From contig DAIDMQ010000016.1 of the NCBI GenBank assembly GCA_027448945.1, positions 62,001-126,000 of the forward strand: a stretch of DNA of 64,000 nucleotides. Direction: 5' to 3'. The notes under the pieces were generated by a model, which saw only the letters and a list, made by a program, of their open reading frames with translations, had not been told where the DNA came from and did not search any database. The first letter of the stretch is position 1; each line of letters opens with the position of its first letter. Origin of the DNA: Gallionellaceae bacterium (GTDB lineage Bacteria; Pseudomonadota; Gammaproteobacteria; Burkholderiales; Gallionellaceae). Made by a program: the position numbers and the translations under genes. Positions 29 to 18,468 of this stretch are shown one piece after another.

Positions 29-496
29 CTAGCAACTAATCCCTTTGAAGTCGCATTGTCGCCATGCTTCGTAAACGCTGACCGCGACCGTATTCGAAAG
101 ATTAAGGCTGCGATTTTCAGGCAGCATGGGTAAGCGTACGCGCTGTGCGGCGGGAAAGTCTGCAAGAACTTCCGCGGGTAAGCCGCGACTTTCAGGGCCG
201 TACAAAAATGTGTCCCCGCCTTGGTAGGACAGGCTATGGAAAGCTTGCGAACCTTTGGTGCTTAGCGCAAACACTCTGCCGGGATCGAAATCTGCTAGGC
301 AGCTTGCCAGATCATCATGCACTTTGAGTGTGGCGAATTCGTGGTAATCCAAGCCGGCCCGTACTAGCTGTTTATCCTCCAGAGTGAAGCCCAGCGGCTT
401 GATCAGATGTAGTTTGCAGCCAGTGTTGGCGCAGAGTCTGATGATATTTCCCGTGTTGGGTGGGATCTCTGGTTGAAAAAGTATGATATTGAACAT
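29..496 (-). CDS. trmL: tRNA (cytidine(34)-2'-O)-methyltransferase, SPOUT family
   Basis: MFNIILFQPEIPPNTGNIIRLCANTG...LYGPESRGLP...LPMLPENRSLNLSNTVAVSVYEAWRQ, typical TrmL/SpoU motifs. Confidence 0.92.
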   Translation of the reverse strand: MFNIILFQPEIPPNTGNIIRLCANTGCKLHLIKPLGFTLEDKQLVRAGLDYHEFATLKVHDDLASCLADFDPGRVFALSTKGSQAFHSLSYQGGDTFLYGPESRGLPAEVLADFPAAQRVRLPMLPENRSLNLSNTVAVSVYEAWRQCDFKGISC

Positions 497-514: not shown

Positions 515-547
515 TTCTTGTCAGGAAGGGTAAAAGCGATTAACTTC
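515..547 (+). promoter_or_regulatory. Promoter-like block upstream of the degenerate mshE paralogue (TTGTCA-N17-TAACTT), shared with 2380-2409
   Basis: TTGTCAGgAaGGgTAAAAgCGATTAACTTC ends 43 nt before the ATG; the same block sits at the same distance upstream of mshE. Confidence 0.45.
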
Positions 548-589
548 GCGGTCAATCAGCTGAAGCACAATTTAGAGCGAGGGGGAATT

Positions 590-2284
590 ATGGGGCGTCC
601 GGAGAAAGTCCGCTTAGGTGATTTGCTGGTGAATGCGAATCTGATCTCGCAACAGCAGTTGGATCAAGCCCTTATGCAGCAGCAGAGCAGTGGGCGGAGG
701 TTGGGGCGCTTACTGGTTGAAAATGGATTTGTCAACGAGGAGCAGATATCAGAAACCCTGGCCAAGCTTTTCAATATTCCCTATATCAACCTAAAGCGCT
801 TCAATTTGAATCCGGAGTTGCTCAAGCGTATCCCCGAGGAGCAGGCGCGTCGATATCGTGCCATCGTGTTGGATGCGGTTGAAGATAGGCTGCGTGTCGG
901 TATGGCTGATCCAACTGATGCTGCGGGCTTTGAAGAAATCAAACGCATATTGAAGTGCGAAGTGGATTTGGTAGTAGTCACTGAAGGTCAGGTACTGGAA
1001 AGCATCGATCGCGGCTACAGGCACACCAACGAGATCGGTGGGCAAATGTATACGCGTGTGAATAGCGGACTGCAGGCTGGACATGTGGTTGCTTCGGGTG
1101 AGGCCGCTGCTCCAGAGGTTTCCGTCACCAAGCAGATACAGGCACTGTTTAATACCGCCATGCAAGTGCGCGCCTCGGACATCCATATCGAATTGACAAA
1201 AGAGGCGGTGGTCTGCCGACTTAGGATAGACGGTATGTTGCATGCGCATATCGATCTGGGTTACCCGCCGACGGAGGCAGTGGTGTTGCGGCTCAAGTTG
1301 ATGGCAGAGTTGGATATCGCTGAAAAATATCTGCCACAGTCAGGCAGTTTCAGGACGCACGTTGATGATCAGGGACTTTTGGTGAATCTGGTGTCCTGCC
1401 CGGTCAAGAAGGGCGAGTCGATCGTGATGCACCTAACTTACCAGAACCGGCAAAGAGCGACTCTGGATAGTCTGGGTATGCCCGAAAATATGCTGATCAG
1501 GCTGCGCGAAATCATAGAGTATGGAAAGGGAATGGTGTTGTTTGTTGCGCCGCCAGATGCGGGCATAACGACGACGATGTATGCGGTTCTCACCGAGGTC
1601 GACAAGGTCAGTAAAAAAATATTCAGCGTGGAAGATCTGGTCGAGCATCAAATTACAGGGGTGAATCAGATTCAGGTCGATAGAGATGCGGGATTTGACT
1701 ATTTGTCCGCATTGCAGGCCGCTGCGGTTCAGGATCCGGATGTGCTGATGTTGAGCAGTATCCACGACAAGCAAGTTGCACGCTTGACGATCAAGACGGC
1801 GATGGAACAGCGCGTGGTGCTTGCAAGCTTGAGTAGCAACGACGCGGCTACCGCCTTGTTTCATTTTTCCGAATTGGGTGTGCCGGCATTTATGGTCGCA
1901 TCCTCGGTGCAGGTTGTGATTGCGCAAAGACTGTTGAGGCGTATCTGTCCTCATTGCAGCGAACCCTACGTGGCGAATAGTCAAGAAAGTGCCTGGTTGA
2001 AATCAGAAATGATCTCGTCCGGACAGATTGTTGCCGGGCTGCGTCGCGGACACGGTTGTGGAAAATGTCAGAGTAGCGGATACCTGGGCCGTATCGCTGT
2101 ATTCGAGATGCTGGAAATGAAAGCCACGTTGGTCGAGGCCGCCGCCCACGATGCACCAGGACCTTTCTTGAAAGAGGCAGCGCAGCAAATGCATGGTCAC
2201 AAAATGCTGGATCAGGCGCTCGACTTGCTTAAGAGGGGGCAGACCACAGTGAATGAAGTGATGCACATGAGCATCCGTCATTGA
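590..2284 (+). CDS. MshE/GspE-family paralogue with degenerate ATPase motifs, MshEN domain retained
   Basis: Full-length alignment by eye to the next ORF. ATG at 590 preceded by GAGGGGG. Walker A region reads FVAPPDAGITTT instead of VTGPTGSGKTTT. The provided ORF start (473) is probably too long. Confidence 0.85.
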   Translation: MGRPEKVRLGDLLVNANLISQQQLDQALMQQQSSGRRLGRLLVENGFVNEEQISETLAKLFNIPYINLKRFNLNPELLKRIPEEQARRYRAIVLDAVEDRLRVGMADPTDAAGFEEIKRILKCEVDLVVVTEGQVLESIDRGYRHTNEIGGQMYTRVNSGLQAGHVVASGEAAAPEVSVTKQIQALFNTAMQVRASDIHIELTKEAVVCRLRIDGMLHAHIDLGYPPTEAVVLRLKLMAELDIAEKYLPQSGSFRTHVDDQGLLVNLVSCPVKKGESIVMHLTYQNRQRATLDSLGMPENMLIRLREIIEYGKGMVLFVAPPDAGITTTMYAVLTEVDKVSKKIFSVEDLVEHQITGVNQIQVDRDAGFDYLSALQAAAVQDPDVLMLSSIHDKQVARLTIKTAMEQRVVLASLSSNDAATALFHFSELGVPAFMVASSVQVVIAQRLLRRICPHCSEPYVANSQESAWLKSEMISSGQIVAGLRRGHGCGKCQSSGYLGRIAVFEMLEMKATLVEAAAHDAPGPFLKEAAQQMHGHKMLDQALDLLKRGQTTVNEVMHMSIRH

Positions 2285-2379: not shown

Positions 2380-2409
2380 TTGTCAGCACGGATAAAAACG
2401 ATTAACTTC
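2380..2409 (+). promoter_or_regulatory. Promoter-like block upstream of mshE, near-copy of 515-547
   Basis: TTGTCAGcAcGGaTAAAAaCGATTAACTTC, 43 nt before the mshE ATG. Confidence 0.45.
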
Positions 2410-2451: not shown

Positions 2452-4155
2452 ATGGCGCGTCCGGAAAAAATACGCTTGGGAGATTTGCTGGTAGTCCAGA
2501 AGTTGCTTACACAAGAGCAACTGATGTTTGCGCTCGATCAGCAGAAGCGTAGCGGTCGCCGCCTGGGGCGCGTGTTAGTCGATAACGGTTTTGTAACCGA
2601 GGATCAAATTTCTGAAGCCTTGGCCAAACAACTCAACATCCCATATGTGAATCTCAAGTATTACAACATCAATATCGAGCATGCGCGCTTGTTGTCAGAA
2701 AATCTGGCGCGGCGATTCAGGGCGCTGGTGTTGGAACCTCGCGGTAAACAGTTGCTGGTTGGGATGGCTGATCCCACCGATTTGTTTGCGTTTGATGAGA
2801 TCTCCCGGTATCTGAAGCGTGACATCGATATCGCGGTGGTCAATGAAGGCCAATTGCTGGAAAGCATAGATAGGGCTTATAGGCGTACCGAAGAGATCAC
2901 CGGTCTGGCGACACAGTTGAGTGCTGAGCTGGGAGATTCGTATATAGATTTTGGTGCGCTCAGTGATGGTGTGGGCTCTGAAGAAGTTCCGGTCGTGAAG
3001 TTGCTGCAAACCATGTTCGATGATGCGACCCAGATACGCGCATCCGATATCCATATAGAGCCGCAAGAAGGGCGGTTGGTGGTGCGTTTTCGTATAGATG
3101 GCGTATTGCACCTGCAGATGGAGGCTGATAACAAGATAGGACCCGCACTGGTGTTAAGGCTCAAGTTGATGTCCGGCTTGGATATCTCGGAAAAGCGCCT
3201 CCCGCAAGATGGTCGATTTCATGTGCGCGTTCGTGAGCAAGGCGTAGATGTGCGTATTGCAACTTGTCCCACTCAACATGGTGAAACCGTGGTGATGCGT
3301 CTATTGCGTCAGGATGGGGGCATGGTCTCTTTGTCCGAATTGGGTATGCCAGAAGCGATGCTGAAACGTTTTCGCGAAATCATACGGCGTAGCAATGGCA
3401 TGGTGTTGGTGACCGGGCCGACGGGTAGCGGAAAAACCACGACGCTCTATGCCGCACTGGCTGAAATCAATTCGATCGATCAAAAAATCATCACGGTAGA
3501 AGACCCGGTCGAATATCGCTTGTCGGGTATCAACCAAGTGCAGGTCAATGAAAAGATAGATCTGACTTTTGCGCGTGTACTGCGCTCGGCCCTGCGTCAA
3601 GATCCCGATGTGATTCTGGTTGGTGAGATGCGTGACGCAGAGACGGCGCAGATCGGTCTGCGTGCGGCGATGACGGGTCACTTGGTGTTTTCCACACTGC
3701 ATACACGTGATGCGGCTGGTACCTTGTTCAGATTGGTCGATATGGGGACGCCACGGTTCATGGTCGCTTCTTCTGTGCAGGCCATCATTGCGCAAAGGTT
3801 GTTGCGTCGCGTATGCCAAAGCTGCAGTGTGCAACATGAGCCCACCCCGCAGGAAGCCGAATGGCTGAAGGCCGAGGGCGTGACAGAAACTCGCATGGCC
3901 GGCTTGTTGCATGGCAGAGGATGCTCGCACTGCAATAGCACCGGTTACCACGGTCGTATGGGCGTATATGAAATGCTGGAAATGGGACGTGAGATGGTGG
4001 AAGCTGCCGCCCATGATAGTTCGAGTCACTTCATGCAAGTGGCGGCCGACCATATGCATGGACAGACCTTGCTCGCACATGGGATAGAGCTGGCGCTGCA
4101 AGGGCGAACCACTGTGAGCGAAGTGATGCGTATCGGTAACCAGATAGAGGATTAG
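2452..4155 (+). CDS. mshE: MSHA biogenesis ATPase MshE (GspE/PilB family)
   Basis: MshEN motifs RLGDLLVVQKLLTQEQL / RLGRVLVDNGFVTEDQI; Walker A GPTGSGKTTT; Walker B DPDVILVGEMRD; CxxC pairs. Confidence 0.9.
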   Translation: MARPEKIRLGDLLVVQKLLTQEQLMFALDQQKRSGRRLGRVLVDNGFVTEDQISEALAKQLNIPYVNLKYYNINIEHARLLSENLARRFRALVLEPRGKQLLVGMADPTDLFAFDEISRYLKRDIDIAVVNEGQLLESIDRAYRRTEEITGLATQLSAELGDSYIDFGALSDGVGSEEVPVVKLLQTMFDDATQIRASDIHIEPQEGRLVVRFRIDGVLHLQMEADNKIGPALVLRLKLMSGLDISEKRLPQDGRFHVRVREQGVDVRIATCPTQHGETVVMRLLRQDGGMVSLSELGMPEAMLKRFREIIRRSNGMVLVTGPTGSGKTTTLYAALAEINSIDQKIITVEDPVEYRLSGINQVQVNEKIDLTFARVLRSALRQDPDVILVGEMRDAETAQIGLRAAMTGHLVFSTLHTRDAAGTLFRLVDMGTPRFMVASSVQAIIAQRLLRRVCQSCSVQHEPTPQEAEWLKAEGVTETRMAGLLHGRGCSHCNSTGYHGRMGVYEMLEMGREMVEAAAHDSSSHFMQVAADHMHGQTLLAHGIELALQGRTTVSEVMRIGNQIED

Positions 4156-4156
4156 G

Positions 4157-5388
4157 ATGGCGGTCTACAGTTACAAAGGGCGCAACCACAGAGGCGATCT
4201 GGTGACGGGTTTGCTGGACGGAAGTGACAGTAGTGTGATTGCTGATCAACTGCTAAATACAGGCATCACGCCAGTAGAGATTGAGTTGTCGAGCAGTGGG
4301 CGAAGCAACGGAACCCGCACAGTATGGCTGCAAAAAATACGTGAAAAGCCCATCACCTCGCTGGACCTGATGTTGTTCAGTCGCCAGATGTACACGCTGC
4401 TGAAAGCCGGCGTGCCTATATTGCGTGCCCTTTCAGGTTTGCAGGAGTCAACACCCAACCCCAAGTTCGCGGCATTGCTGCAAGACATACGCGAAAGTTT
4501 GGATAGCGGGCGCGAACTCAGTGCGGCATTTCGACGGCACCCGGAAGTGTTTTCTCCTTTCTATGTCAGCATGGTGCAAGTCGGGGAAATGACGGGCATG
4601 TTGGATGAAACTTTCATCCGGCTCTATGACTATCTGGATTTCGAGCGCGACATGCGCGACCGTATACGCAGTGCGATGCGCTATCCCAGCTTCGTCGTGA
4701 TGGCGATGGCAATTGCATTGTCATTATTAATCTGTTCGTCATTCCCACCTTTGCCAAAGTCTATGCGGGCTTCCATGCAGAGCTACCCATGGTCACCAAA
4801 TTGCTGATCGGATTTTCCAATTTCATGGTGAATTATTGGTTGCTGATGGTTGCGATTGTGGTTGCTGTGGCGGTGGGGTTTCGCTATTACATCCGCACCG
4901 CGAATGGTCAATTCCAGTGGGATAAATACAAGCTACGACTGCCCGTGGTCGGCAGCATCATCATGAAAGCGACTTTGGCACGCTTCTCGCGCAGCATGGC
5001 TTTGGCATTCAAGAGTGGTATGCCTATTTTGCAGGGGATGAATGTCGTTGGTATGGTGGTGGATAACGAATTCATGCGCAGCCGTATCGAGCAGATGCGT
5101 GACGGTATAGAGCGCGGTGAAAGTATCTTGCGTACCGCGGTCGCATCGCAGGTATTCAATTCGGTGGTGCTGCAAATGATCTCTGTAGGTGAAGAGACGG
5201 GCGACATGGATGGCCTGATGTTCGAAGTGGCGGATATGTATGAGCGTGAAGTGAAGTATGAAGTGGAGGGATTAAGTGCCAAGATAGAGCCTATCCTCAT
5301 CGTTGCTTTGGGTTGCCTGGTGCTAGTGCTCGCATTGGGTGTGTTCCTGCCAATGTGGGATTTGGGCAAAGCGGCAATGCACTCATGA
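4157..5388 (+). pseudogene. mshG: Type II secretion/pilus inner-membrane protein MshG (GspF/PilC family), split by a 1-nt frameshift near 4720
   Basis: ORFs 4157-4807 and 4789-5388 are consecutive parts of one GspF-like protein. Out-of-frame codons 4722-4789 read IINLFVIPTFAKVYAGFHAELP, the expected continuation. Confidence 0.82.
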
Positions 5389-5924
5389 TGGGGGCTAGCT
5401 ACAGGCCGGTTTGTCAGTCACGCGGTTTCACTTTGTTCGAGTTGATACTGGTCATTTCGATTGTGTCGGTCTTGGTCGGGGTGTTTTTAAACCGCTTTAT
5501 CAGCTATCAAGAATTGGCCGAACGGACAGCTATGGAGCAAGTGGTTGCTACGGTGCAAAGTGCTTTGGTTCTGCAATTTGCACAAATACAAACCAGGGGG
5601 CAGGAATCTGACCTGGCAGCGATGGCAATCGACAATCCTATGCGCTATTTGCAAAAGCAGCCGCGTAATTATGCGGGCGAGTTTTACGATGCCACACCCA
5701 TCAGCGCCGAGTCCGGCAACTGGATATTCGATTTGAAATCCCGTGAAATGGTTTATTTGGTGCGGCACAAGGAAAATTTTCGGCCCGGCAAAGATGGCAA
5801 TAACTGGATACGTTTTCGCGTGACCATGAAGTATGAAAAGCCGTTATTTAGCAATCAACAAGATGGCAAGCGTGAATTGGTCGGAATTTTGTTTGAACCT
5901 GTTCAGGCATATCACTGGCGGTAA
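5385..5924 (+). CDS. Type IV pilin-like MshB/MshF-type protein
   Basis: Prepilin-like RGFTLFELILVISIVSVLVGVFLNRF; position between mshG and mshA. Confidence 0.6.
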   Translation: MMGASYRPVCQSRGFTLFELILVISIVSVLVGVFLNRFISYQELAERTAMEQVVATVQSALVLQFAQIQTRGQESDLAAMAIDNPMRYLQKQPRNYAGEFYDATPISAESGNWIFDLKSREMVYLVRHKENFRPGKDGNNWIRFRVTMKYEKPLFSNQQDGKRELVGILFEPVQAYHWR

Positions 5925-6041
5925 ACCGCACAATGACTTCGAGTGTTTTCTTCGGTTTGAGAATGAATACATTGAATTTTTGCTAGAAAATGTACATTTG
6001 TCGTGTTAGTCTCACCGTTCGTCAGACGTTTTTTCTGTTGC

Positions 6042-6070
6042 TTGTAGATGTTAAGCCCAGCCACTATAGT
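6042..6070 (+). promoter_or_regulatory. Candidate sigma70 promoter for mshA (TTGTAG-N17-TATAGT)
   Basis: Good -10 with 17-nt spacer in the 234-nt gap before the pilin gene. Confidence 0.35.
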
Positions 6071-6158
6071 CGTGCACGCTGGGTGGGTAAAAATTTAAGA
6101 AAACGGCAATATTTTAAATGTAAGCGGGTGTGACCCGAATAATTCAAAGGAGAGAAGT

Positions 6159-6524
6159 ATGAAAAAGCAAGCTGGTTTTACATTGATTGAATTGGTAATG
6201 GTGATTGTTATTTTGGGTATCTTGGCTGCAACGGCCCTGCCTAAGTTTGTTGATCTTTCCACAGATGCGAAAATGGCTGCGGTTAAGGGTGTGGCTGGTG
6301 CATTGTCATCAGGAGGTACTGTGAACTATGCAGAGCGTTCGGTGAAAGGCACTACCTTTGGTATCGCTACTTCTGGTGTTGCGTGTACCACGATTGCGGC
6401 AGGCGTATTGGATGGCGGCGCACCTGCTGGATATAACTTTACGGGAAATGGTCCAACTTGCACTGTGACTGATAATACTCTTGCTTCGGCGTCAGCTGTT
6501 GCGACTGTTCCTGCCATTAACTAG
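6159..6524 (+). CDS. mshA: Major MSHA-type pilin
   Basis: MKKQAGFTLIELVMVIVILGILAATALPKFVDLSTDAK; strong RBS (aaaggagagaagt). Confidence 0.85.
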   Translation: MKKQAGFTLIELVMVIVILGILAATALPKFVDLSTDAKMAAVKGVAGALSSGGTVNYAERSVKGTTFGIATSGVACTTIAAGVLDGGAPAGYNFTGNGPTCTVTDNTLASASAVATVPAIN

Positions 6525-6625
6525 ACAACGCGGCTTGTAGATGGTGAGTGTGTCATAACAAATGTCTTGGCTGTGGCTTTTGGTTGGCTTTGTCGGATAG
6601 CTATGCAAAGTTACCATCACGGTAA

Positions 6626-6656
6626 ATAAAGGGGGGGGTAATCTCCCCCTCTTTGT
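6626..6656 (+). terminator. Hairpin terminator/attenuator between mshA and the minor pilin genes
   Basis: AATAAAGGGGGGGGTAATCTCCCCCTCTTTGTTT: G/C stem followed by T-rich sequence. Confidence 0.6.
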
Positions 6657-6688
6657 TTGGATTTTGTAAATGGATTCCTCCAGAAGAT

Positions 6689-7129
6689 ATGTTGAAACGA
6701 ATGGTGGGTTTTACCTTGGTCGAACTGGTTATGACGATGGTTATCATCGGCATCCTGGGGGCCGTTGCCGTGCCGCGTTTGTTTGATAATACGATCTTCC
6801 AATCACGTGGATTTTCCGATCAGGTAAAGGCGAGTGTGCGTTTTGCGCAGAAGGTTGCCATCGCACAGCATCGTTTTGTGTGTTTGAATTTCACCGCTAC
6901 GGGGTTAACTTTGAGTCTGGGTACGACCAATGCCTGTGGAACGCCTGTTTCAATGTCTGATGGCAGCGCGAGTTTGAATGCACCGTCAGGGGTGGGATTT
7001 GTTTCCACCCCGGCAAATTTTAATTTCGATGTGTTGGGTCGCCCTTCTTTTGCTACCGCGCAGAGTGTATCCATCACAGGCTCAAATGCGGCTATCACGA
7101 TAGAGGCGGAGACGGGCTATGTGCATTGA
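6689..7129 (+). CDS. mshC: MSHA minor pilin MshC-like
   Basis: MLKRMVGFTLVELVMTMVIIGILGAVAVPRLFD; order after mshA. Confidence 0.7.
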   Translation: MLKRMVGFTLVELVMTMVIIGILGAVAVPRLFDNTIFQSRGFSDQVKASVRFAQKVAIAQHRFVCLNFTATGLTLSLGTTNACGTPVSMSDGSASLNAPSGVGFVSTPANFNFDVLGRPSFATAQSVSITGSNAAITIEAETGYVH

Positions 7130-7622
7130 GACGCCTTCTGCGCTAAACAGGCAGTGCAGATCGCACTACATGCTTGGTGCAAGCCTGATCGAATTAATCA
7201 TGTTCATCGTGATCGTGGGTGTGGCACTCGCCGGGATTACTTTGGTTTTGAACACTACCAACAAGAGCAGCGCAGACCCATTGTTGCGTAAGCAGGCGAT
7301 GGCGGCAGCGTCTTCTATGCTGGAAGAGATTGAGTTGCAGGATTTCATCTCCGCGTCCGGCGCGACTGCTGTCGTGACGACAGCTAATCGTGCCACTTCA
7401 TACCACATCGTCAATGACTACGGAACATATGCAACAACCGGGATATACCCATTTGGTGGAATGGCGCCATCACCGGGGCTACAGAACTACAACGTCAGTG
7501 TGGCAATCACACCGACAGCATTGGGTGATATCGCTGCAGCGAGTGCGGTGATGATTGATGTCACGGTGACAACGCCTGGCGGAGAGGCGATTACTGCCTC
7601 GGGATATAGGGCGGCATACTGA
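7119..7622 (+). CDS. mshD: MSHA minor pilin MshD-like
   Basis: GASLIELIMFIVIVGVALAGITLVLNTTNKSSADPLLRKQAMAAASSMLEEI. Confidence 0.75.
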   Translation: MCIETPSALNRQCRSHYMLGASLIELIMFIVIVGVALAGITLVLNTTNKSSADPLLRKQAMAAASSMLEEIELQDFISASGATAVVTTANRATSYHIVNDYGTYATTGIYPFGGMAPSPGLQNYNVSVAITPTALGDIAAASAVMIDVTVTTPGGEAITASGYRAAY

Positions 7623-8527
7623 TGAGCTACCCTGAGAGAATATTTGCAAAGGTATCTGTGCGCTCCACACAGTCGGGATTCTCGCTGGTCGAACTGATCA
7701 TGGTCATCGTGATTACCGGCATATTGGGCGGTATCGTGGCGGTGTTCCTTAAAGCACCTATACAGCAATATACGGATGTCGCGCGGCGTGCCGAACTGAC
7801 TGATATTGCTGATGCGGCTTTGTATCGTTTGGCGAGTGACATCAGCACTGCTGTACCAAATAGTCTGCGCACCTTGGGCTGCAGCCCCAATTGCGTGGAA
7901 TTCTTGCCCACTACGAACGGTGGTCGTTACCGTGTGGATGCCATGGGTGGTACAGGCGGATGTGGTTTGGCTGGCGATGATTTGGACTTCACGGTTGCGG
8001 ACAGTTGTTTTGAGATCATCGGTCCTCCGCTTACTTTTGCCGCCGGTGATCAGATCGTGCTGGGGAGCGTGCAATCCGATGGTAATCCACCTTATGACAC
8101 AGGCGCAGCCTCGGGTGTGCTGCGCGCCTATGCTGGTACGGCGGGGGTTCAAACGATAGTGCAGATCACGGCGACACAGTTTCCATTTTTTGCCAGCTTA
8201 CCGTCGCGCCGATTCGATGTGGTCGATGGCGCGCAGCAGGCCATCACCTATGCTTGTGAGGGCGTGGGTACAGATGCTGGCGGGACGGGGACAGGGCAAC
8301 TCAAGCGTTATTGGAAGTATGGTTTTGTCGCAAACGCGCAACCTGTGCCCCCTATAGCGCTGGCGGGGGTGCAGAGCGCGATCCTTGCAGACAAGGTTAG
8401 TGCGTGCAATATCAGTTATGGCGCAAACAATCAGCGTTTGGGTTTGTTGACGGTACAACTGACGCTAAGCGTGAGTGGTGAGAGTGTCAGTCTTTACCAT
8501 GAGATACATGTGAATAACATACCATGA
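7622..8527 (+). CDS. mshO: MSHA minor pilin MshO-like
   Basis: SGFSLVELIMVIVITGILGGIVAVFLKAPIQQYTDVARRAELTDIADAALYRLASDI. Confidence 0.8.
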   Translation: MSYPERIFAKVSVRSTQSGFSLVELIMVIVITGILGGIVAVFLKAPIQQYTDVARRAELTDIADAALYRLASDISTAVPNSLRTLGCSPNCVEFLPTTNGGRYRVDAMGGTGGCGLAGDDLDFTVADSCFEIIGPPLTFAAGDQIVLGSVQSDGNPPYDTGAASGVLRAYAGTAGVQTIVQITATQFPFFASLPSRRFDVVDGAQQAITYACEGVGTDAGGTGTGQLKRYWKYGFVANAQPVPPIALAGVQSAILADKVSACNISYGANNQRLGLLTVQLTLSVSGESVSLYHEIHVNNIP

Positions 8528-8955
8528 GGACATTGATGCAACGCGGATTCAGCCTGATTTCAGCCATCTTTTTGTTGGTGGTGGTTGCTGCCTTGGGCAC
8601 TTTTGCCGTGACGCTTTCTACATCGCAAAATCAGTCCCAAACTATGGATATCGTTGGGGCGAGGGCTTATCAGGCGGCATTGGCGGGAATCGAGTGGGCC
8701 GCATTTCATGTTGCGCAAACGGCTGCCAGTGCGCCGGCCGCGTGGGGTGGATGTGTGGCAGGTGCGAATGTGGCAGTCGCCGGGAATCTTGCGGTATTTT
8801 CCCCTGTGACGGTTAATTGCAACGCCACCCTGAGTAATGAAGCCGGCGTAACCATTTGGGTCTACGACGTATCGGCAGTTGCTGCAACAACAGGTGCATT
8901 GCCCGGTAGCGCCAACTATGTGGAGCAGGTGGCAACGGCCAAAATGGCAAGATGA
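8524..8955 (+). CDS. mshP: MSHA biogenesis protein MshP-like
   Basis: MQRGFSLISAIFLLVVVAALGTFAVTLSTSQNQSQTMDIVGARAYQAALAGIEWAAF. Confidence 0.75.
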   Translation: MRTLMQRGFSLISAIFLLVVVAALGTFAVTLSTSQNQSQTMDIVGARAYQAALAGIEWAAFHVAQTAASAPAAWGGCVAGANVAVAGNLAVFSPVTVNCNATLSNEAGVTIWVYDVSAVAATTGALPGSANYVEQVATAKMAR

Positions 8956-9067
8956 AGTAAGATTGTGGCTATAGCCCGTTCTTGAAGTATGGGTAATTAA
9001 GTTCGTAGGATAAAATGCGCGCCATTAATTAAAAATAATCTGGCGCTTGTCGTGCAAGGGGATAGAT

Positions 9068-11977
9068 ATGAAGAACATCGTCAAATTCATTTTTTTATTG
9101 TCGTTGATATTCGCAGCCGATGCGATGGCGGTGACGTGTACCAGTATTGCCAACAAAGACTGGAATAGTAGCCGTGCCTGGATGGGTTGCAATAATGGTC
9201 AGCCGCCAACGGGCAGCTCGGTCATCATTGCCAGCGGTACTGTGATCAAGGCAGATTCAAATACGAATACGGTCGCTAATATCACCATCAATGCGGGCGG
9301 TACGTTGCAGGGTAAAAACGGCAATACAATTTCCTTCTCCGGCAACTTCATCAACAATGGCACATTCACTGCTGGCGGCGGCAAAGTGGCGCTGACTGGC
9401 ACGAATCAGACTATCGGCGGCACCAGCACCACTACATTTTTTAACCTGTCCGTAGGCGCGCAGACTGTAGTCACGCTGACTGGCAACATCGTTGTGACTG
9501 GTACGACTAATCTAACGGCAGCCAAGATCGCTTCGACATGCCCGACAAATTTCACTATTACAACTGCAGCAGGTGTGTTGAATAGTTGCACGACGACTCC
9601 CCCGCCGACAGGAAATGTTACGGTGACGATGAATCCCGGTAGCTGCGTGAACACTGTGTGGACAGGTATAGGAAAATCTTCATGGGCGCCCACACCGACC
9701 ACTAATGTCAACTTGAATGACACCTTGTATGCGACGACCACGCTAACTGGCACGAGTAACTATTTGCAATGCTCGGCCTATGGCTTCACCATTCCTGCGA
9801 ATGCAACCATCGTGGGTGTGGTGGTGAATGTGCAGCGCAAGTCTTCCCGCACCAGTCGTACTACGGATGGTGCGATGCGCTTGGTAAAAGCCGGTGTGAT
9901 TGGGACTGTGGATCGTTCGACTGCCACCACTTACACAACCGTCGATGTGGCAGAGCCGCATGGTACGGCAACGGATTTGTGGGGGACTACTTGGACGCCG
10001 GCAGACATCAATGCCGCTAACTTTGGCGCGGCATTTGCAACAAAGGCTACGAAAAAACGAACTGTGTCGGTGAATCACATGCCGATTTCGGTGACTTATA
10101 GCGTTCCATCAAACGTCCCTCACCATATTCAAATTGAGCATGACGGCTCCGGCCTGACCTGTGCCGCAGAGCAAGTCACGATACGCGCGTGTGCCGACGC
10201 TGCATGCACCAAAAACCTCACTGGCGCCGCTGTAACGGGCAACCTGCTTTGGACAGGCGGTGGCAGTACCTCATTTACCATTCAGAGCGGCGGTACAGGA
10301 CAGGTGGTGGTCGCGGTACCGGTATCGACTGCGCAAACTGTCACCCTTAGCATCAACAGTGTTACCCCAACGCCGGTTGCGGCCAGTTCATGCTTGAATA
10401 CGGCAGGGGGGACATCTTGCAGTTTGACCTTCGCCCAATCTTCTGTGTGTATCGATGCGGTGGAGCAAGGGGGTACCCTGATTACGGGTATCTATACCAA
10501 GCTCTCGGGCGTGCCTTTCTCGTTGGATCTACTAACGACTTCGGGTGCGAATTACAACAATGCAAATGTTACGGTGGAGCTGGTTGATGCGCTGGCCGGT
10601 ACAAGCTGCGCAACACGAACTTCATTATCTGCTCAAAATGTCAACTTTCCGAATGTGAATCGCAAGACCGTCAATTTCACCTATGCCGGCGCAGTCAAAC
10701 AGGCGAAAGTCCGTGTAACGGGGTTGGGCGCGCCGAGCTGCTCGGCAGATAAATTCGCTATCCGCCCTTCCGGTTTTACGGTGACTTCCAATCTGAATGC
10801 TGATGCCACGGGAACGAATCCGAATGCCACGCCGGTATTGGCAGCGGGTGCCAATTTCACGTTGACTGCAACCGCAGTGTCCGGATATGACGGTACCCCC
10901 GCCATCAATATCGCCAAAGTTAGTGCACATACAGGAGCTGTGGCAAACGGACAGTTAACGGGCGTTTTCTCGCCAGCCAATCCGGCAACAGGTGTGGCGA
11001 GTGGCAGTACGTTCGCTTATAACGAAGTCGGGTATTTCAAATTGGCTGCGGATGGTGTCTTGGATACGACATTTGCAAATATCGATACCCTGGATGGTGA
11101 CTGCACGCTGGATGCTTCCAATAGCCTGGTTGGCGGAAAATACGGGTGTTATATCGGACATGCTGCAACCCCCTATTTTGGCCGTTTCGTGCCTGATCAC
11201 TTTGATACGGTTGCGACGAATAAGTGCGATATTTTCACCTACTCTGGACAACCCTTTCTGGTCGAAGTGCAGGCCAAGGATGCTGCGGGTACGACGATAT
11301 TGCAAAATTATGAACCCCCTTACTCCAAGGCGGTGATGCTCAGTGACTCACAAAATGCTGCCAGTGTAGGGGCGTTAGCGCCGACTATAGTGTCGAATTT
11401 TAGTCTGGGTACGAGCGCTAGTAATCCGGCCTACAGCTTCGCAGTTTTGAGGACGGCACCTACGACGGTAACAGTCGCCGCAACCGAGGTGGCAGGTGGC
11501 GACGGCGTGAGTTCGACTTCGTCCAAAAGCATACCTGTGGCGAGCTTTATCGCAACCGAGGGGAGTGTGGATATCCGTTCTGGACGGTTGTGGTTGGGAA
11601 ATGCTTATGGTTCTGAGCTACTAGATCTACCTGCGCCCCTGTTTGCGCAGTATTGGGATGGCAGCACTTATTTGACTAACGTGGATGACGATGTCGCTGC
11701 AACTTGTACTGCTGTTTCTACGCCTACGTTGGTATTGCAGCCAGGTGGAACTGCAGTCACTGCGACCATGAATAACATGCTCATCGCAGGCGATGGCGGC
11801 TTGGTGTTAATGCGCCCCAACGTTTCCGGATACGTCGATGTGACCGTCGCTGCGCCTACATGGTTGCGCTATGACTGGGCCGGTACCGGTGTGCAGAGTG
11901 ATCCAACTGCACGTGCGACATTTGGTGTTTATAAAGGAAAAGATGTTTACATCTATCGCGGGCGACGCGGGCGATAG
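9068..11977 (+). CDS. mshQ: MSHA-associated large secreted protein MshQ-like (DUF6701-type C-terminal region)
   Basis: Signal peptide (MKNIVKFIFLLSLIFAADAMA); beta-rich Thr/Ala/Gly repeats; C-terminus NVSGYVDVTVAAPTWLRYDWAGTG...ATFGVYKGKDVYIYRGRRGR; follows mshP. Confidence 0.72.
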   Translation: MKNIVKFIFLLSLIFAADAMAVTCTSIANKDWNSSRAWMGCNNGQPPTGSSVIIASGTVIKADSNTNTVANITINAGGTLQGKNGNTISFSGNFINNGTFTAGGGKVALTGTNQTIGGTSTTTFFNLSVGAQTVVTLTGNIVVTGTTNLTAAKIASTCPTNFTITTAAGVLNSCTTTPPPTGNVTVTMNPGSCVNTVWTGIGKSSWAPTPTTNVNLNDTLYATTTLTGTSNYLQCSAYGFTIPANATIVGVVVNVQRKSSRTSRTTDGAMRLVKAGVIGTVDRSTATTYTTVDVAEPHGTATDLWGTTWTPADINAANFGAAFATKATKKRTVSVNHMPISVTYSVPSNVPHHIQIEHDGSGLTCAAEQVTIRACADAACTKNLTGAAVTGNLLWTGGGSTSFTIQSGGTGQVVVAVPVSTAQTVTLSINSVTPTPVAASSCLNTAGGTSCSLTFAQSSVCIDAVEQGGTLITGIYTKLSGVPFSLDLLTTSGANYNNANVTVELVDALAGTSCATRTSLSAQNVNFPNVNRKTVNFTYAGAVKQAKVRVTGLGAPSCSADKFAIRPSGFTVTSNLNADATGTNPNATPVLAAGANFTLTATAVSGYDGTPAINIAKVSAHTGAVANGQLTGVFSPANPATGVASGSTFAYNEVGYFKLAADGVLDTTFANIDTLDGDCTLDASNSLVGGKYGCYIGHAATPYFGRFVPDHFDTVATNKCDIFTYSGQPFLVEVQAKDAAGTTILQNYEPPYSKAVMLSDSQNAASVGALAPTIVSNFSLGTSASNPAYSFAVLRTAPTTVTVAATEVAGGDGVSSTSSKSIPVASFIATEGSVDIRSGRLWLGNAYGSELLDLPAPLFAQYWDGSTYLTNVDDDVAATCTAVSTPTLVLQPGGTAVTATMNNMLIAGDGGLVLMRPNVSGYVDVTVAAPTWLRYDWAGTGVQSDPTARATFGVYKGKDVYIYRGRRGR

Positions 11978-12034
11978 CAATAAACATATTCAAATCAATT
12001 GACAGTAAATGATTGTTAAAGTAAGTTCCTGAAT

Positions 12035-12988
12035 ATGATGAAATTACCATCCATTTCCAGACTGTTGGGCACAAAAGCTCAGGACGATGGATGGTTTGCG
12101 TGCGATTTCGTGGCGAATGGAGCGTATACCGCACAAGTCGATTTTTCGGGCGCTAGACCAAAAGTGACGCGCTGCTCATTCCATCTTGCAGATGCGATGA
12201 GTGGTGAAGTGTTGGAGCGTTTGTCGCGCGATGCTGATTTCCCCAAGAAACAAATTACAACGCTGTTGAGTTTCGGTGAATATCAAATGCTGATGGTGGA
12301 GGCCCCTGTGGTGCCTGCTGATGAGCTCAAGACGGCAATACGATGGAAGATCAAAGATGCACTGAGTTTCCATGTGGAAGATGCCACGATAGATGTCTTG
12401 CAGATCCCCAAGCAGGGAGCTGAAAGGATGACGTATCTTTTTGCCATCGCAGCCGAGAATAGCGTCATACAGCAGAAGATCGCGATGTTTGAACGCGCCA
12501 AGCTCGATTTGAATGTCATCGATATACGTGAAACCGCGCAGCGTAATATCGCCACGCTCTATGAGCAAAATGAGCGCGCAGTCGTTTTGTTGGTATTCGA
12601 TGAAAAGGGCGGTCTGATGACCTTCTCGTCAGGTGGGGAGCTGTATATGTCTCGCCGTATAGAGATAGGAGTCGACCAATTATGCGAAGTCGACGAAGAG
12701 TTGTTGTCGCAGGCCATGAATCGTATCGAACTGGAACTGCAGCGCTCGCTGGATTATTTTGATCGCCAATATAACCATATACCCATTAGCCGGCTCTTGG
12801 TGAGTGCGCCGTCAGCTTCGGGCCTCATCAGCTTCTTGAGCGGGACGATGGATATAAAGGTCGAACAACTTGACCTGTCACAAGTCATGGATACAAGTGC
12901 GGTAGCGGAGTTAAGCAATCAGGACTTCCTGATGAATGCGATACCGGTGATAGGTGCCGCATTGAGACAGGAAAGACGCGCGCTATGA
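12035..12988 (+). CDS. mshI: MSHA biogenesis protein MshI (PilM-like)
   Basis: Actin-like PilM-type fold; position in locus. Confidence 0.75.
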   Translation: MMKLPSISRLLGTKAQDDGWFACDFVANGAYTAQVDFSGARPKVTRCSFHLADAMSGEVLERLSRDADFPKKQITTLLSFGEYQMLMVEAPVVPADELKTAIRWKIKDALSFHVEDATIDVLQIPKQGAERMTYLFAIAAENSVIQQKIAMFERAKLDLNVIDIRETAQRNIATLYEQNERAVVLLVFDEKGGLMTFSSGGELYMSRRIEIGVDQLCEVDEELLSQAMNRIELELQRSLDYFDRQYNHIPISRLLVSAPSASGLISFLSGTMDIKVEQLDLSQVMDTSAVAELSNQDFLMNAIPVIGAALRQERRAL

Positions 12989-13626
12989 GTCAGCAAGTCA
13001 ATCTGTTTAACCCAATCTTTATGAAGCAAAGAAAGTATTTTTCTTTGCTTACCATGTTGCAATCCTTGGCGCTGATCATCTTGGGTTCCTTGCTGTTCTA
13101 TGGTTATGCGCGTTATCAAGTAAGTACCTTAGAGCGGCAAGCGATCAAAAACAATGAGCGTTATATGGCTGACAGGGTGCGTGTGGAGAAATTCCGCAGT
13201 GAGTTTTCTCCGGAGCAAACCAACCGTGCATTACAGGATGAGATTCAACTGCTGGAAAAAAAATTTACCGAGCAGAGCGTCTTGGTCAGCACATTACAGA
13301 CCGGTGTAATTGGCAACACCCTGGGCTATTCTCAATATATGAAAGCTTTTTCTAGGCAGGTCGTGCCCGGCTTGTGGTTAACAGGCTTCAAGCTGACGGG
13401 TGATGGCGCACAGATTAATCTGCAAGGCGCGGTCGTCGATGGGAAGCTGTTGCCTAACTTCATCAATCGATTGAGTCATGAGAAAAGCATGCAGGGTAAA
13501 ACTTTTGCGACTTTGGAAATGGAGCAAGTCAAGAGTTTAGCAAGCAAAGATGGCAAGATACCGCCTGTGCCCCGTTATGTGTCGTTCAGTTTGCAGTCCG
13601 GCAAAGCAGGCGAGGTAACGAAATGA
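12985..13626 (+). CDS. PilN-like MSHA biogenesis protein
   Basis: SQQVNLFNPIFMKQRKYFSLLTMLQSLALIILGSLLFYGYARYQVSTLE: one N-terminal TM plus coiled coil. Confidence 0.7.
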   Translation: MSQQVNLFNPIFMKQRKYFSLLTMLQSLALIILGSLLFYGYARYQVSTLERQAIKNNERYMADRVRVEKFRSEFSPEQTNRALQDEIQLLEKKFTEQSVLVSTLQTGVIGNTLGYSQYMKAFSRQVVPGLWLTGFKLTGDGAQINLQGAVVDGKLLPNFINRLSHEKSMQGKTFATLEMEQVKSLASKDGKIPPVPRYVSFSLQSGKAGEVTK

Positions 13627-14300
13627 AGTCCTACTGGAAACTGTTCGGCGGTAAAGTGGATGACTTATCGTTACGCGAGCGGGTCATGATGTTCGCCGCT
13701 GCGGGGTTTGTTGTAATTTCTGTCATCAACTCGCTGTTGCTCGATCCACTGACCATTCGTCAAAAGTCCTTGTCCTTGCAAATTGAGCAACAGCAAGAAA
13801 AAAATAAAGAACTGCAGGCTGAGCTACAAGCTTTGCTGCTTGCAAAGCAAAATGATGCGACTTCACCTCTTAGGTTACGCATTGCCGAACTGAAAATTTT
13901 GCTGGGAAATCAGGAAGACTATCTCAAAGGTCGTCGCGACCGCTTGGTAGAACCAGAGAAAATGGCTCATCTATTGGAGCAGGTGCTGAGTAAGAACTCA
14001 CATCTGCAGCTGGTTTCGTTGAAGACATTGCCCGTGAGTCTGTTGATAGATAAGCCCGGCACCAAGGAGGGCGTCCAAGAGAGTGCAGATGCACAAGTCA
14101 AACAGATATACAAACATGGTGTACAGATCAGTGTGCGCGGTACATATTTGGATCTGTTGAACTATGTTTCTGCGTTGGAACGTATGCCTACCCAGATGTT
14201 CTGGGCAGAAGCGGATTTGGTCGTGGAGCAACATCCGGATGCAGTGTTGACATTGGTACTTTATACCTTGAGTTTAGATAAGACATGGTTGACCGTATGA
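13623..14300 (+). CDS. mshJ: MSHA biogenesis protein MshJ (PilO-like)
   Basis: N-terminal TM and coiled coil; ATGA overlap with neighbours. Confidence 0.68.
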   Translation: MKSYWKLFGGKVDDLSLRERVMMFAAAGFVVISVINSLLLDPLTIRQKSLSLQIEQQQEKNKELQAELQALLLAKQNDATSPLRLRIAELKILLGNQEDYLKGRRDRLVEPEKMAHLLEQVLSKNSHLQLVSLKTLPVSLLIDKPGTKEGVQESADAQVKQIYKHGVQISVRGTYLDLLNYVSALERMPTQMFWAEADLVVEQHPDAVLTLVLYTLSLDKTWLTV

Positions 14301-14707
14301 TCAAATTCGCAGGTTTACTGCTGTTGTTAGTTGTGCAGCCACTTTCTGCGGAGATGTTGAGCGACCCGACTCGCCCTGCGGCTACGCTGGAGGTAGGTGA
14401 AGCTGTCGGGAGCGCCACACTGGATGATGTCAGCCAGACTCAGGGTTTGCATCTCATCATCATCAAGAAGAACAGACGAGCGGCAATCATAGATGGTCAA
14501 ACTGTGGAGCTGGGAGGCAAAGTCGGCGATGCCCGCTTGGTCGAGGTTCACGAGGATCGCGTGGTGCTGCTGGGCTCAGGTGGTCGCAGGGAAATGAAGC
14601 TCTACCCCAGGGTGTCGATCAGGCGGGCTGACAAGGTAATAACATCGAGAGACGGGCAGGCGCCCGCAAGCGCACAGTCCGTAATCACGAACAAGGAGAA
14701 AAAATGA
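14297..14707 (+). CDS. mshK: MSHA biogenesis protein MshK (PilP-like)
   Basis: Signal peptide; LSDPTRPA...LHLIIIKKNRRAAIIDGQTVELGGKVGDARLVEVHEDRVVL. Confidence 0.75.
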   Translation: MIKFAGLLLLLVVQPLSAEMLSDPTRPAATLEVGEAVGSATLDDVSQTQGLHLIIIKKNRRAAIIDGQTVELGGKVGDARLVEVHEDRVVLLGSGGRREMKLYPRVSIRRADKVITSRDGQAPASAQSVITNKEKK

Positions 14708-16485
14708 GACACTCGTTATGGCTGATCGCCATACTGACACTGCTTTCGGGCTGTGCGACACCCGCACAACGCAATGTTGCGGGTGAATCGATAGAAAACA
14801 CGATGAATCAGGCGGTAGCGCAAAGCGACCAACCTGGTAAATCGGATGCAGTCAGTGCCGCACTACTACCGTCCATTTCCATGGATATGCCCAAAGTAGA
14901 TAGCAAGTCTTTGGAAAACCGTTTCGATCTGTCTGTCGTCAACACACCAGCCGCTCAAGTTTTCATGGCCATCGTATCGGGTACTCGTTACAGTATGCTG
15001 TTGCACCCGGATGTAAGTGGCAGTATCACGCTCAATCTGAAGGATGTCACAGTCTTTGAGGCGCTGGAAGCGGTGCGTGAACTCTATGGCTATAACTACA
15101 AGGTCGATGGCAGTCGCATCTATATCCAGTCTGCGGATCTACAGACGCGGATATTTCAAGTCAATTATCTGACCGGCTTGCGTGCGGGTACTTCATCTTT
15201 GCGTGTGACCTCCGGCTCGGTGTCGGATACGGCCACAGGCAGTAGCACCACTGGACAGTTGCCAACTTCTGTTAATCGCATCGAATTCGCCAAGAATAAA
15301 TCGTCGGGGCAGGTCACTTCAGCCAGTATCAATAATGAAAGCGGCAAAGATGGCAGCAAAGTCATGACGGTGACCAGCACAGATTTCTGGGGCGAGTTGG
15401 ATACCGCGCTTCGTACCATCGTAGGTGAAGAGAAAGGTCGCAGTGTGGTCATCAGTCCGACTTCCGGAGTGATTGTGATACGTGCGATGCCCGATGAGCT
15501 GAATAGCGTGGCGGCCTATCTCAAGGCGGCGCAGATATCTGTGGAGCGTCAAGTGATACTTGAAGCCAAGATTGTAGAGGTGCAGTTAAGCGATGGTTAC
15601 CAATCGGGTGTGAACTGGGGTGTGTTCAAGTCAGGTCAGAACAGTGGCTTGAGTGCCGGACAACTGGCAGCCACAGGCAACGCAGGTGGCGTGCTTGCGC
15701 CGGGCGTGGCGGGTGCGGCAGGTGCCAAAATGACACCTAACTTGCTGGGTGCAGGCGGGGCGTTCTCATCTATACCAGGTGCGGATCTGGCCAATACTGC
15801 GGTTCCAGGACAGGTGCCGGGCTCCTTGTTTGGCCTGGCTTTTCAGACCAGTAATTTTGCAGCCTTGTTGAGCTTCTTGGAATCGCAGGGCAATGTGCAT
15901 GTGCTGTCCAGTCCCCGTATCGCAACTTTGAACAACCAGAAAGCCGTCCTCAAAGTCGGCACGGACGAGTTTTTCGTGACCGAGATTTCAGGTGGCACGC
16001 AGGGAACCGCTAACGTGGCGGGCACCGCACCCACGGTCAAGGTGCAGCCATTCTTCTCGGGTATCGCACTGGATGTTACGCCGCGTATCGATCAAAACGG
16101 CGAAATCATCTTGCATGTACATCCCTCTGTGAGCACTGTTACGACGGTCAATAAGTCACTGAATCTTGGTACGGCCAACGGCACATACAATCTGCCGCTG
16201 GCTTCCAGTTCTATCTCGGAGACAGACAGCATTGTACGTTCGCGCGATGGCCAGATCGTGGCAATAGGCGGTTTGATGCGCCAAGCGACTTACGACGACA
16301 ACTCCGGTTTGCCCGGCCTGCCCAAGAGCGTGTTTGGTCAGACCAACCAACGTACCGAAAAACGTGAATTGGTGATCTTGCTCAAGACTACTATCGTTGA
16401 TAGCGACAAGGATTGGTCTGAAGATATCGCACGCAGTCGTGATCGCTTACATGACCTCGACTCATCGCAGCACAAGCAACAATAG
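14704..16485 (+). CDS. mshL: MSHA outer-membrane secretin MshL
   Basis: Lipobox-like LTLLSGCATP; secretin signature VHVLSSPRIATLNNQKAVLKVG...IVAIGGLMRQ. Confidence 0.9.
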   Translation: MRHSLWLIAILTLLSGCATPAQRNVAGESIENTMNQAVAQSDQPGKSDAVSAALLPSISMDMPKVDSKSLENRFDLSVVNTPAAQVFMAIVSGTRYSMLLHPDVSGSITLNLKDVTVFEALEAVRELYGYNYKVDGSRIYIQSADLQTRIFQVNYLTGLRAGTSSLRVTSGSVSDTATGSSTTGQLPTSVNRIEFAKNKSSGQVTSASINNESGKDGSKVMTVTSTDFWGELDTALRTIVGEEKGRSVVISPTSGVIVIRAMPDELNSVAAYLKAAQISVERQVILEAKIVEVQLSDGYQSGVNWGVFKSGQNSGLSAGQLAATGNAGGVLAPGVAGAAGAKMTPNLLGAGGAFSSIPGADLANTAVPGQVPGSLFGLAFQTSNFAALLSFLESQGNVHVLSSPRIATLNNQKAVLKVGTDEFFVTEISGGTQGTANVAGTAPTVKVQPFFSGIALDVTPRIDQNGEIILHVHPSVSTVTTVNKSLNLGTANGTYNLPLASSSISETDSIVRSRDGQIVAIGGLMRQATYDDNSGLPGLPKSVFGQTNQRTEKRELVILLKTTIVDSDKDWSEDIARSRDRLHDLDSSQHKQQ

Positions 16486-16486
16486 T

Positions 16487-17419
16487 ATGTATCTGAAGCA
16501 TTTTGGTTTGCTCGAACAGCCCTTCGGGCTGACACCTGATACCAGTTTCTTTTACGCCTGCTCCAGTTATCAGGAAGCGCTTAATACGCTGCTGATCGCG
16601 GCGCGTAACGGCGAGGGTTTTATCAAAATTACGGGCGAGGTGGGCAACGGGAAGACACTGTTGTGTCGCAAGTTTCTCGCAGCGTTGAATCCGGCACGCA
16701 CGCCGGTTACGCAAGGCACGGAAAATGCCGTAGCCAAATCAGATCCGCGTTTCATGATCGCGTATATCCCAAATCCCTATTTAGAACCACGTAGTTTGCT
16801 GATGGCGATGGCCGAACAGTTCGGTGTCGATGTCACCAACCTAAGCGATCAGCACCAGTTGCTCAAGGCGCTCACCCTCAGCTTGCTGGAATGCGCACGC
16901 AAAGGACAGCGCGCGATTGTGTGTTTGGATGAAGCGCAAGCCATGCCGCTCGCGAGTTTGGAGGTGCTGAGGCTGTTGACGAATTTGGAGACTGAGAAGC
17001 GCAAATTGCTACAAGTGGTTTTATTCGGTCAGCCCGAGTTGGATGAACACCTGCGCCAGCATGCGATACGTCAGTTGCGCCAACGCATCACTTTCCAGCA
17101 TCAGTTGATGGGCTTGCAGCAAGATGAGTTGGACCGCTATCTGCGCCATCGTCTGAAGGTTGCCGGATACGCAGGTGAGACATTGTTCAGCAAGGCCGCA
17201 GTATTAAAGCTGCAGCGCATCAGCAAGGGCACTCCCCGGCTCATCAATATTCTCGCCCATAAGGCGATGATGTCGGCGTATGGCGAAGGGCGCCAGCAAG
17301 TGGCTTATAAGCACATAACACTAGCCGCCAAAGATACTCCCGAAGCCGGTCGAGACTGGTTGCTTTGGGGAGCAGGAATTGCAATTGCTGTTTTGCTCGC
17401 GGGGATGGGGTTGTTATGA
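16487..17419 (+). CDS. mshM: ExeA-like AAA ATPase MshM
   Basis: MYLKHFGLLEQPFGLTPDTSFFY...ITGEVGNGKTLLCR...IVCLDEAQAMPL; the provided ORF start (16397) overlaps mshL. Confidence 0.87.
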   Translation: MYLKHFGLLEQPFGLTPDTSFFYACSSYQEALNTLLIAARNGEGFIKITGEVGNGKTLLCRKFLAALNPARTPVTQGTENAVAKSDPRFMIAYIPNPYLEPRSLLMAMAEQFGVDVTNLSDQHQLLKALTLSLLECARKGQRAIVCLDEAQAMPLASLEVLRLLTNLETEKRKLLQVVLFGQPELDEHLRQHAIRQLRQRITFQHQLMGLQQDELDRYLRHRLKVAGYAGETLFSKAAVLKLQRISKGTPRLINILAHKAMMSAYGEGRQQVAYKHITLAAKDTPEAGRDWLLWGAGIAIAVLLAGMGLL

Positions 17420-18468
17420 GCTTGATCAATCAGATGGTGAATCAGATGGAACAGCGTGGTGCGCAACTCGATACGGAAGATTATTTAGTCCGTTCGGTGC
17501 AAATCTCACGAGGCTCATCCAAACTGGTTTGGTGGCTGTTGGCGCTCGCAATAATTGCGGCGATAACGGTGTGGTCCTATGTCAGATATACCACCAAGGT
17601 GCCGGCGCTTATTTCCCGTGCCGAGACGGCAGAGATTCGGCGGCTCACTCAGCCGGTGGTGGCTGTGGCGATACCAGATGCAAGCAGTGCAGTGGTGACA
17701 GCGCCAGTCTTTCAGTTAAGTCTGGATCTCAGCGAGCCAGTATCAAAACTAGCAACAGAGATAGCTCAACCTGTAGTAGCGGAAAAGTTGCCGCAACCAA
17801 AAGTGGTGCGTGAGCATCCATCCAAAGTCGCAAAGGCGGATAAGGTGGCGCTTCCCGCGCCGTTGCCGGCAAGCGAAGGATTACCAGAAAAGAAAATCAG
17901 CACACAGCAAAGAGCTGATACAGCGTTCCGGAAGGGCATAGCCTATATGCAGCAGGGGCGTAGCTCCGAGGCTTTGCAGGAATACCAAACTGCGCTCGCA
18001 CTGGATGCGGGTCACGACAAAGCCCGGCAAGCCTTGGTATTGTTGCTGATTGAAAGCAAGCGCAACACAGAGGCCGAGCAGGTCCTATTGGAAGGCGTTA
18101 GGTTTAATCCCGAAAAATTGGGTTTTGTGATGATGGCAGCCAGACTGCAAGTCGAGCGTGGTGCGATCAATGAAGCTGTGCAGACTTTGGAGTCATCACT
18201 GTCTTACGCCACCGTGCACCCCGAGTATCAGGCCTTCCTGGCTGCGTTGATGCAACGACTACAGCGCCATCAAGAGGCAATCACGCGTTATCAGGCCGCA
18301 TTGACACTTAATCCAGGCAATGGACTTTGGTGGATGGGAGAAGCGATCTCATTGCAGGCGCTGAAACAGAATAAGGATGCCAAGTCTGCCTATCAACATG
18401 CACTTGATTTAAAGAATCTCAGCCCTGATTTGCAACAATACGTGCAGCAAAGACTCAAAGAGCTGTAA
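17416..18468 (+). CDS. mshN: TPR protein MshN
   Basis: MSLINQMVNQMEQRGAQ; one TM; TPR repeats. Confidence 0.8.
   Translation: MSLINQMVNQMEQRGAQLDTEDYLVRSVQISRGSSKLVWWLLALAIIAAITVWSYVRYTTKVPALISRAETAEIRRLTQPVVAVAIPDASSAVVTAPVFQLSLDLSEPVSKLATEIAQPVVAEKLPQPKVVREHPSKVAKADKVALPAPLPASEGLPEKKISTQQRADTAFRKGIAYMQQGRSSEALQEYQTALALDAGHDKARQALVLLLIESKRNTEAEQVLLEGVRFNPEKLGFVMMAARLQVERGAINEAVQTLESSLSYATVHPEYQAFLAALMQRLQRHQEAITRYQAALTLNPGNGLWWMGEAISLQALKQNKDAKSAYQHALDLKNLSPDLQQYVQQRLKEL

Follow-up and report, generated by a model that had tools for sequence, protein, structure and literature searches.

We have found that the gene lying directly upstream of mshE in the window (the whole stretch of 64,000 nucleotides analysed here) encodes a degenerate paralogue of the MshE pilus motor, and its description as a pilus-motor pseudoenzyme under selection is well supported. 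As to its role, we give about even chances to a protein that works free of nucleotide and without MshE, as a scaffold or signalling protein that responds to c-di-GMP; that it has a ligand, a partner and an output is what we infer.

The window corresponds to positions 62001-126000 of a 273 kb contig (C16) in a 2.45 Mb genome of 42 contigs (G000), which belongs to a relative of iron-oxidising bacteria. The gene order is trmL (reverse strand), the paralogue, mshE, mshG, the pilin genes and, further on, mshL, mshM and mshN (ending at 18468), followed by comF (reverse strand), bioB and bioF (Table 1); the genes were named by similarity and after the known make-up of the MSHA operon. The frame of the paralogue runs from the ATG at 590 to the stop at 2284 and encodes 564 amino acids with no internal stops, so the open frame described in an earlier note on this DNA was confirmed. 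An assembly artefact or chimera was ruled out, as the flanks are conserved inside the 273 kb contig and the counterpart found in another genome (G089) lies inside a contig of 435 kb. As a separate observation, mshG (4157-5388) is split in the window into two overlapping ORFs (4157-4807 and 4789-5388), apparently with one base missing near 4713; in relatives it is a single frame of 411-416 codons, and the split could have arisen either by true mutation or in the assembly.

Table 1. Location of the paralogue, its sequence elements and the neighbouring genes in the window.
Feature	Coordinates	Strand	Remarks
trmL	29..496	-	Left flank of the paralogue site, conserved
Promoter-like element of the paralogue, TTGTCA-N17-TAACTT	518..546	+	43 bases before the ATG; identical in mshE
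Ribosome-binding site of the paralogue, AGGGGG (AGGGGGAATTATG before the ATG at 590)	581..586	+	Context as in mshE of G019
Degenerate MshE paralogue, catalytically dead	590..2284	+	Frame, profile matches, alignment to MshE
Domains of the paralogue: MshEN (residues ~1-145), linker, N2D (~170-300), CTD (~301-450), zinc/C-terminal part (~451-564)			
Tandem c-di-GMP motif of the paralogue, residues 8-60	611..769	+	First half complete; second half without its last Gln (Leu60)
Walker A of the paralogue, destroyed: APPDAGITTT (MshE GPTGSGKTTT)	1547..1576	+	
Promoter-like element of mshE, TTGTCA-N17-TAACTT	2380..2408	+	43 bases before the ATG
Intact MshE	2452..4155	+	567 amino acids, catalytic motifs all present
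mshE to mshN block, MSHA pilus genes	2452..18468	+	Block absent from G089

Each of the two neighbouring genes has its own copy of a putative promoter. The element listed in Table 1, or a close variant of it, precedes 40 starts of mshE or of the paralogue in and near the Gallionellaceae (some genes enter this count more than once), with a spacer that is invariably of 17 bases, and both window genes match it letter-perfect. It was seen by comparison only, and a plain sigma-70 scan gives no site at this place. The presence of the same element before both genes implies that the duplication included it, and the paralogue has kept it. In the bases of the A-rich spacer, the two genes of a single genome seem to resemble each other more closely than orthologues, or copies of the paralogue, do, a hint of gene conversion or co-evolution.

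By descent, the protein is a member of the MshE/PilB/GspE family, with full-length profile matches (Pfam T2SSE, 1.7e-73, and MshEN, 1.1e-17), the tetra-cysteine zinc site and the family fold; it is 48% identical to the adjoining MshE over 563 aligned columns and scores below every NCBIfam equivalog cut-off. Judged from its sequence, it falls outside the active ATPases, as four defining catalytic features were looked for and are absent. The four altered motif strings quoted in the earlier note are all present in that form: the Walker A pattern GxxxxGK[ST] is missing (K329I in MshE numbering), the catalytic Glu that follows the atypical Walker B, GE[IM]RD, is gone in SSIHD (E393S, same numbering), the His box reads ASLSSNDA (ASLSS against STLHT), and the Arg of LRQDPD is lost in AAVQDPD. 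The Arg after Walker B has also disappeared in the alignment with 80 active MshE proteins. Moreover, both arginine fingers, located by their 15-residue spacing and with roles taken from PMC5424180, are gone (VDVR to LVNL, R269N, and VVMR to IVMH, R284H, MshE numbering), so the loss of catalysis proposed in that note extends further than it had described. In PilB, magnesium is held by the Glu of the Asp box, the His box makes contact with the gamma phosphate, and two arginines reach into the ATP site of the neighbouring subunit (PMC5424180). With these motifs and both arginine fingers lost, the paralogue is predicted to be unable to bind or hydrolyse ATP by the known mechanism, or to complete the site of a neighbour.

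The losses are unevenly distributed along the protein. Among 189 columns that are at least 97% invariant across the 80 active MshE proteins, the paralogue keeps 26 of 31 in MshEN, 36 of 55 in N2D and 24 of 25 in the C-terminal zinc part; in the ATPase core it keeps 29 of 55 non-catalytic columns and 7 of 21 catalytic ones (catalytic columns against all others, Fisher p 0.003), and by this test of aligned sequences the motif losses are beyond chance. The acidic pair of the Asp box (VED) and both CxxC pairs, that is, the four zinc cysteines, are retained in the alignment to MshE, as had been noted. An AlphaFold2 model built from 34 sequences (pLDDT 81) contains MshEN, N2D, CTD and the C-terminal elements, and a Foldseek search with it matched PilB and GspE structures. 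A control model of MshE reached the same overall confidence (pLDDT 82.7), and only residues ~320-370 of the paralogue, around the ATP site, were clearly less confident (blocks of 59-79 versus 74-89 in MshE). An intact fold is thus predicted, and the drop in confidence relative to the control is confined to the surroundings of the ATP site.

The c-di-GMP domain is retained as a domain, since it reaches 70.7 bits with the NCBIfam model NF053729 (cut-off 38), whereas its motif is not fully kept. With the motif defined as two RLGxx(L)(V/I)xxGxxxxxxLxxxLxxQ half-motifs (PMC5013675), the Gln lost from the second half in the window copy is a c-di-GMP-contacting residue, which counts against a protein that responds to this nucleotide. 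However, changes of Arg9, Asp12 or Gln32 in Vibrio cholerae MshE shift the affinity by about fivefold at most (PMC5013675), an effect small enough to make c-di-GMP binding by the paralogue plausible. The model of another protein with this domain, NfrB (NF008411), matches residues 7-182.

We have also found the paralogue in relatives. An MshE-family match occurs in 102 of 159 Gallionellaceae genomes, and degenerate copies next to trmL were found in four of the 159, namely the window genome, G007, G032 and G089, all four with an intact reading frame; most of the genomes that bear MshE have no such copy. In G007 and G032 the gene lies between trmL and mshE, as in the window. The recurrence upstream of mshE that the earlier note proposed to look for is thus real, but these two copies keep the Walker A Lys, catalytic Glu and arginine fingers and are without the LRQDPD Arg and His box. 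These last two features are missing in all four copies; only the window copy lacks the Walker A Lys and catalytic Glu as well. The G089 site reads gpsA, trmL (reverse strand), the paralogue, comF (reverse strand), bioB and bioF; the mshE-mshN block is cleanly gone (L097:7855-10844) with its flanks in order, and a search of this genome, which is 99% complete, gave no orthologue of MshE, MshG or MshL. In G019, the nearest relative that could be examined, trmL directly precedes mshE and the paralogue is absent, and in G088 and G004 trmL adjoins comF, with both the paralogue and the msh block gone. This patchy distribution, together with the absence from G019, indicates that the function of the gene is dispensable. 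The trmL upstream of mshE in G019 (L048 1-290, G019:C27) appears broken, with homology stopping inside the contig end; trmL was not found elsewhere in G019, nor in G073.

Nearly all other MshE-family copies were read, and their catalytic motifs are intact where readable, with a few contig-end fragments stopping short; the same holds for additional MshE-like matches (G072, G002, G475, G507, G508 and others). A single-protein scan of the named genomes found no further dead copies, and a diagnostic alignment for them gave two of the known copies of the paralogue and ordinary MshE among the matches listed. The matches G002:C1, G475:C40, G507:C206 and G508:C119 are unlinked MshE-like motors, ~50% identical to MshE, with intact motifs.

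The G089 locus bears directly on the proposal of the earlier note that the protein is a non-hydrolysing subunit of a mixed hexamer with MshE. A more general form of this idea places the paralogue in MshE complexes as a subunit or partner, where it would enter or cap the rings and tune pilus extension either by c-di-GMP or by poisoning neighbouring sites. It adjoins mshE and has the same promoter-like element, its MshEN and C-terminal parts are well kept, and PilT and PilU provide a known case of a dead motor acting jointly with a live one (PMC6762196), an arrangement also discussed for PilB and TfpB (PMC11656802). However, the gene persists in G089 without mshE, mshG and mshL, and therefore a mixed hexamer cannot be its general role. 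Furthermore, the loss of the arginine fingers, the Walker Lys and the Glu would leave every interface of the paralogue inactive, including any contribution to the ATP site of a neighbouring MshE, and most genomes with MshE lack it. We consider this explanation unlikely as a general one, and a role inside MshE complexes in the window organism is possible.

A second explanation, rather unlikely in our judgement and in fact a particular case of the c-di-GMP-responsive scaffold, is that the protein serves another type IV filament system of the cell as a c-di-GMP-dependent adaptor or decoy, either docking on its platform (PilC of the type IVa pilus or GspF of type II secretion) or competing with its motor. 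Both the window genome and G089 encode PilB-like and GspE-like motors, and G089, in which the gene has persisted without MSHA, has platform proteins ~30% identical to MshG. Nevertheless, extension motors are as a rule dedicated to the platform of their own system (PMC11656802), and the pore-facing residues of the paralogue are partly lost.

The codon comparisons indicate that the paralogue is under purifying selection, in agreement with the earlier claim that selection keeps it. The window and G089 copies differ by 37, 25 and 65% at codon positions 1, 2 and 3, respectively, and omega=1 is rejected for this pair (2dlnL 272). In branch codon models omega was 0.08 for the window branch (omega=1 rejected, 2dlnL 34-36, under three topologies) and 0.06 for the G089 branch (2dlnL 23), and it was not clearly below 1 for their shared stem, although all these values are rough because silent sites are near saturation. 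Equality to 1 was also rejected separately for MshEN, N2D, CTD and the C-terminal part, and the ATP-site segment was the least constrained (omega 0.30, with omega=1 weakly rejected, 2dlnL 3.4). When neutral drift was simulated at 0.22 substitutions per site, a 567-codon frame stayed open in none of 2000 runs. A pseudogene was ruled out by the intact frame, the rejection of omega=1 and the retained promoter-like element, and the selection on the window copy can be dated only inexactly relative to the loss of its last catalytic residues. A decaying relic that has recently lost its function, with stops still to come, would fit the patchy distribution, the faster protein change (branch dN of 0.20 versus 0.07 for mshE), the relaxed ATP-site segment and the frameshift in mshG of the same operon, but it is improbable given the selection over the gene and in those four parts, the four intact frames in four genomes, the retained promoter-like element and ribosome site, and the loss from the window copy of six of the 13 catalytic residues that G089 or the sister lineage of the window has retained, which would have left time enough for stops in a neutral gene.

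Regarding its origin, the window and G089 copies are sisters in the tree (100/100) and are joined by the G007 and G032 copies (94/97). A private duplication of the window's own mshE alone was rejected (AU test, p=0.0009), and a duplication within the G000/G019/G092 lineage was not (p=0.29). In the codon model, a single origin lies 8 lnL units above two separate duplications, and separate origins would imply that the same Arg and His box were lost twice. A single ancestral duplication is thus favoured by the sequence comparisons over two separate tandem duplications, although the promoter spacers look more similar within each genome than from one copy of the paralogue to another.

Returning to the nucleotide-free scaffold or signal protein, it is the best explanation because the gene persists in G089 and because there is a precedent in PilB. 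In Myxococcus xanthus, a Walker A Lys mutant of PilB has no ATPase activity and does not assemble pili, but it turns exopolysaccharide on and is dominant, and nucleotide-free PilB has been proposed as the signalling state (PMC5544727); by its sequence, the paralogue would be permanently in this state. In our reading, a tandem duplication of mshE, including the promoter-like element, gave rise to the gene, and its catalytic site was then dismantled in steps: the LRQDPD Arg and His box are gone from every copy, and the Walker A Lys and catalytic Glu from the window copy alone, which has also lost both arginine fingers, while selection has kept the rest of the protein. The paralogue would most likely work without nucleotide and without needing MshE, with c-di-GMP bound by MshEN changing the docking of the motor-like body on a partner in the absence of ATP turnover. 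The inner-membrane pilus platform or a biofilm or exopolysaccharide pathway would be candidate partners.

Several known systems are similar to the paralogue in part. It has the MshEN-N2D-CTD order, the tetra-cysteine zinc site and most of the c-di-GMP motif of MshE, the MSHA extension ATPase and c-di-GMP receptor of V. cholerae, but most of its catalytic motifs are lost and it occurs in G089 without MSHA genes. It resembles the M. xanthus PilB K327A protein (PMC5544727) in that the ATP site of an extension motor has ceased to function while a c-di-GMP motif, short of one Gln in the paralogue, is present; the output of that mutant is independent of pili. However, PilB K327A was engineered by changing a single residue of an active motor, whereas the paralogue is a natural, separate gene whose ATP site is mostly destroyed. 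The PilU/PilT and TfpB/PilB pairs are also paralogous motors of one family, and they act together (PMC6762196, PMC11656802); a PilT whose ATP site is dead still functions with PilU (PMC6762196). In their natural form, however, the motors of these pairs retain the catalytic motifs, and the paralogue, which does not, persists without a partner motor. MshEN also serves to receive c-di-GMP in proteins that are not motors, NfrB among them. NfrB couples the domain to a glycosyltransferase, in contrast to the paralogue, which retains a full, degenerate motor body. In the literature searched, which left most subscription papers out of reach, we found engineered dead motors and pairs of active motors, but no report of a natural, selected MshE/PilB paralogue with a dead ATP site.

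Most work to date on whether pilus motors signal independently of ATP turnover has relied on engineered mutants. The genomes described in this work offer a natural series that goes from active MshE, through the partly degenerate copies of G007 and G032 and the copy that G089 carries without MSHA, to the window copy with its dead ATP site, and such a series would separate the function of the motor body as a scaffold or c-di-GMP receptor from its role as an engine. Tentatively, and at somewhat less than even chances, a pilus extension motor may have become a free-standing c-di-GMP effector that needs neither motor nor pilus and has outlived MSHA in at least one lineage. The paralogue would also show a route from a pilus ATPase to a regulatory pseudoenzyme.
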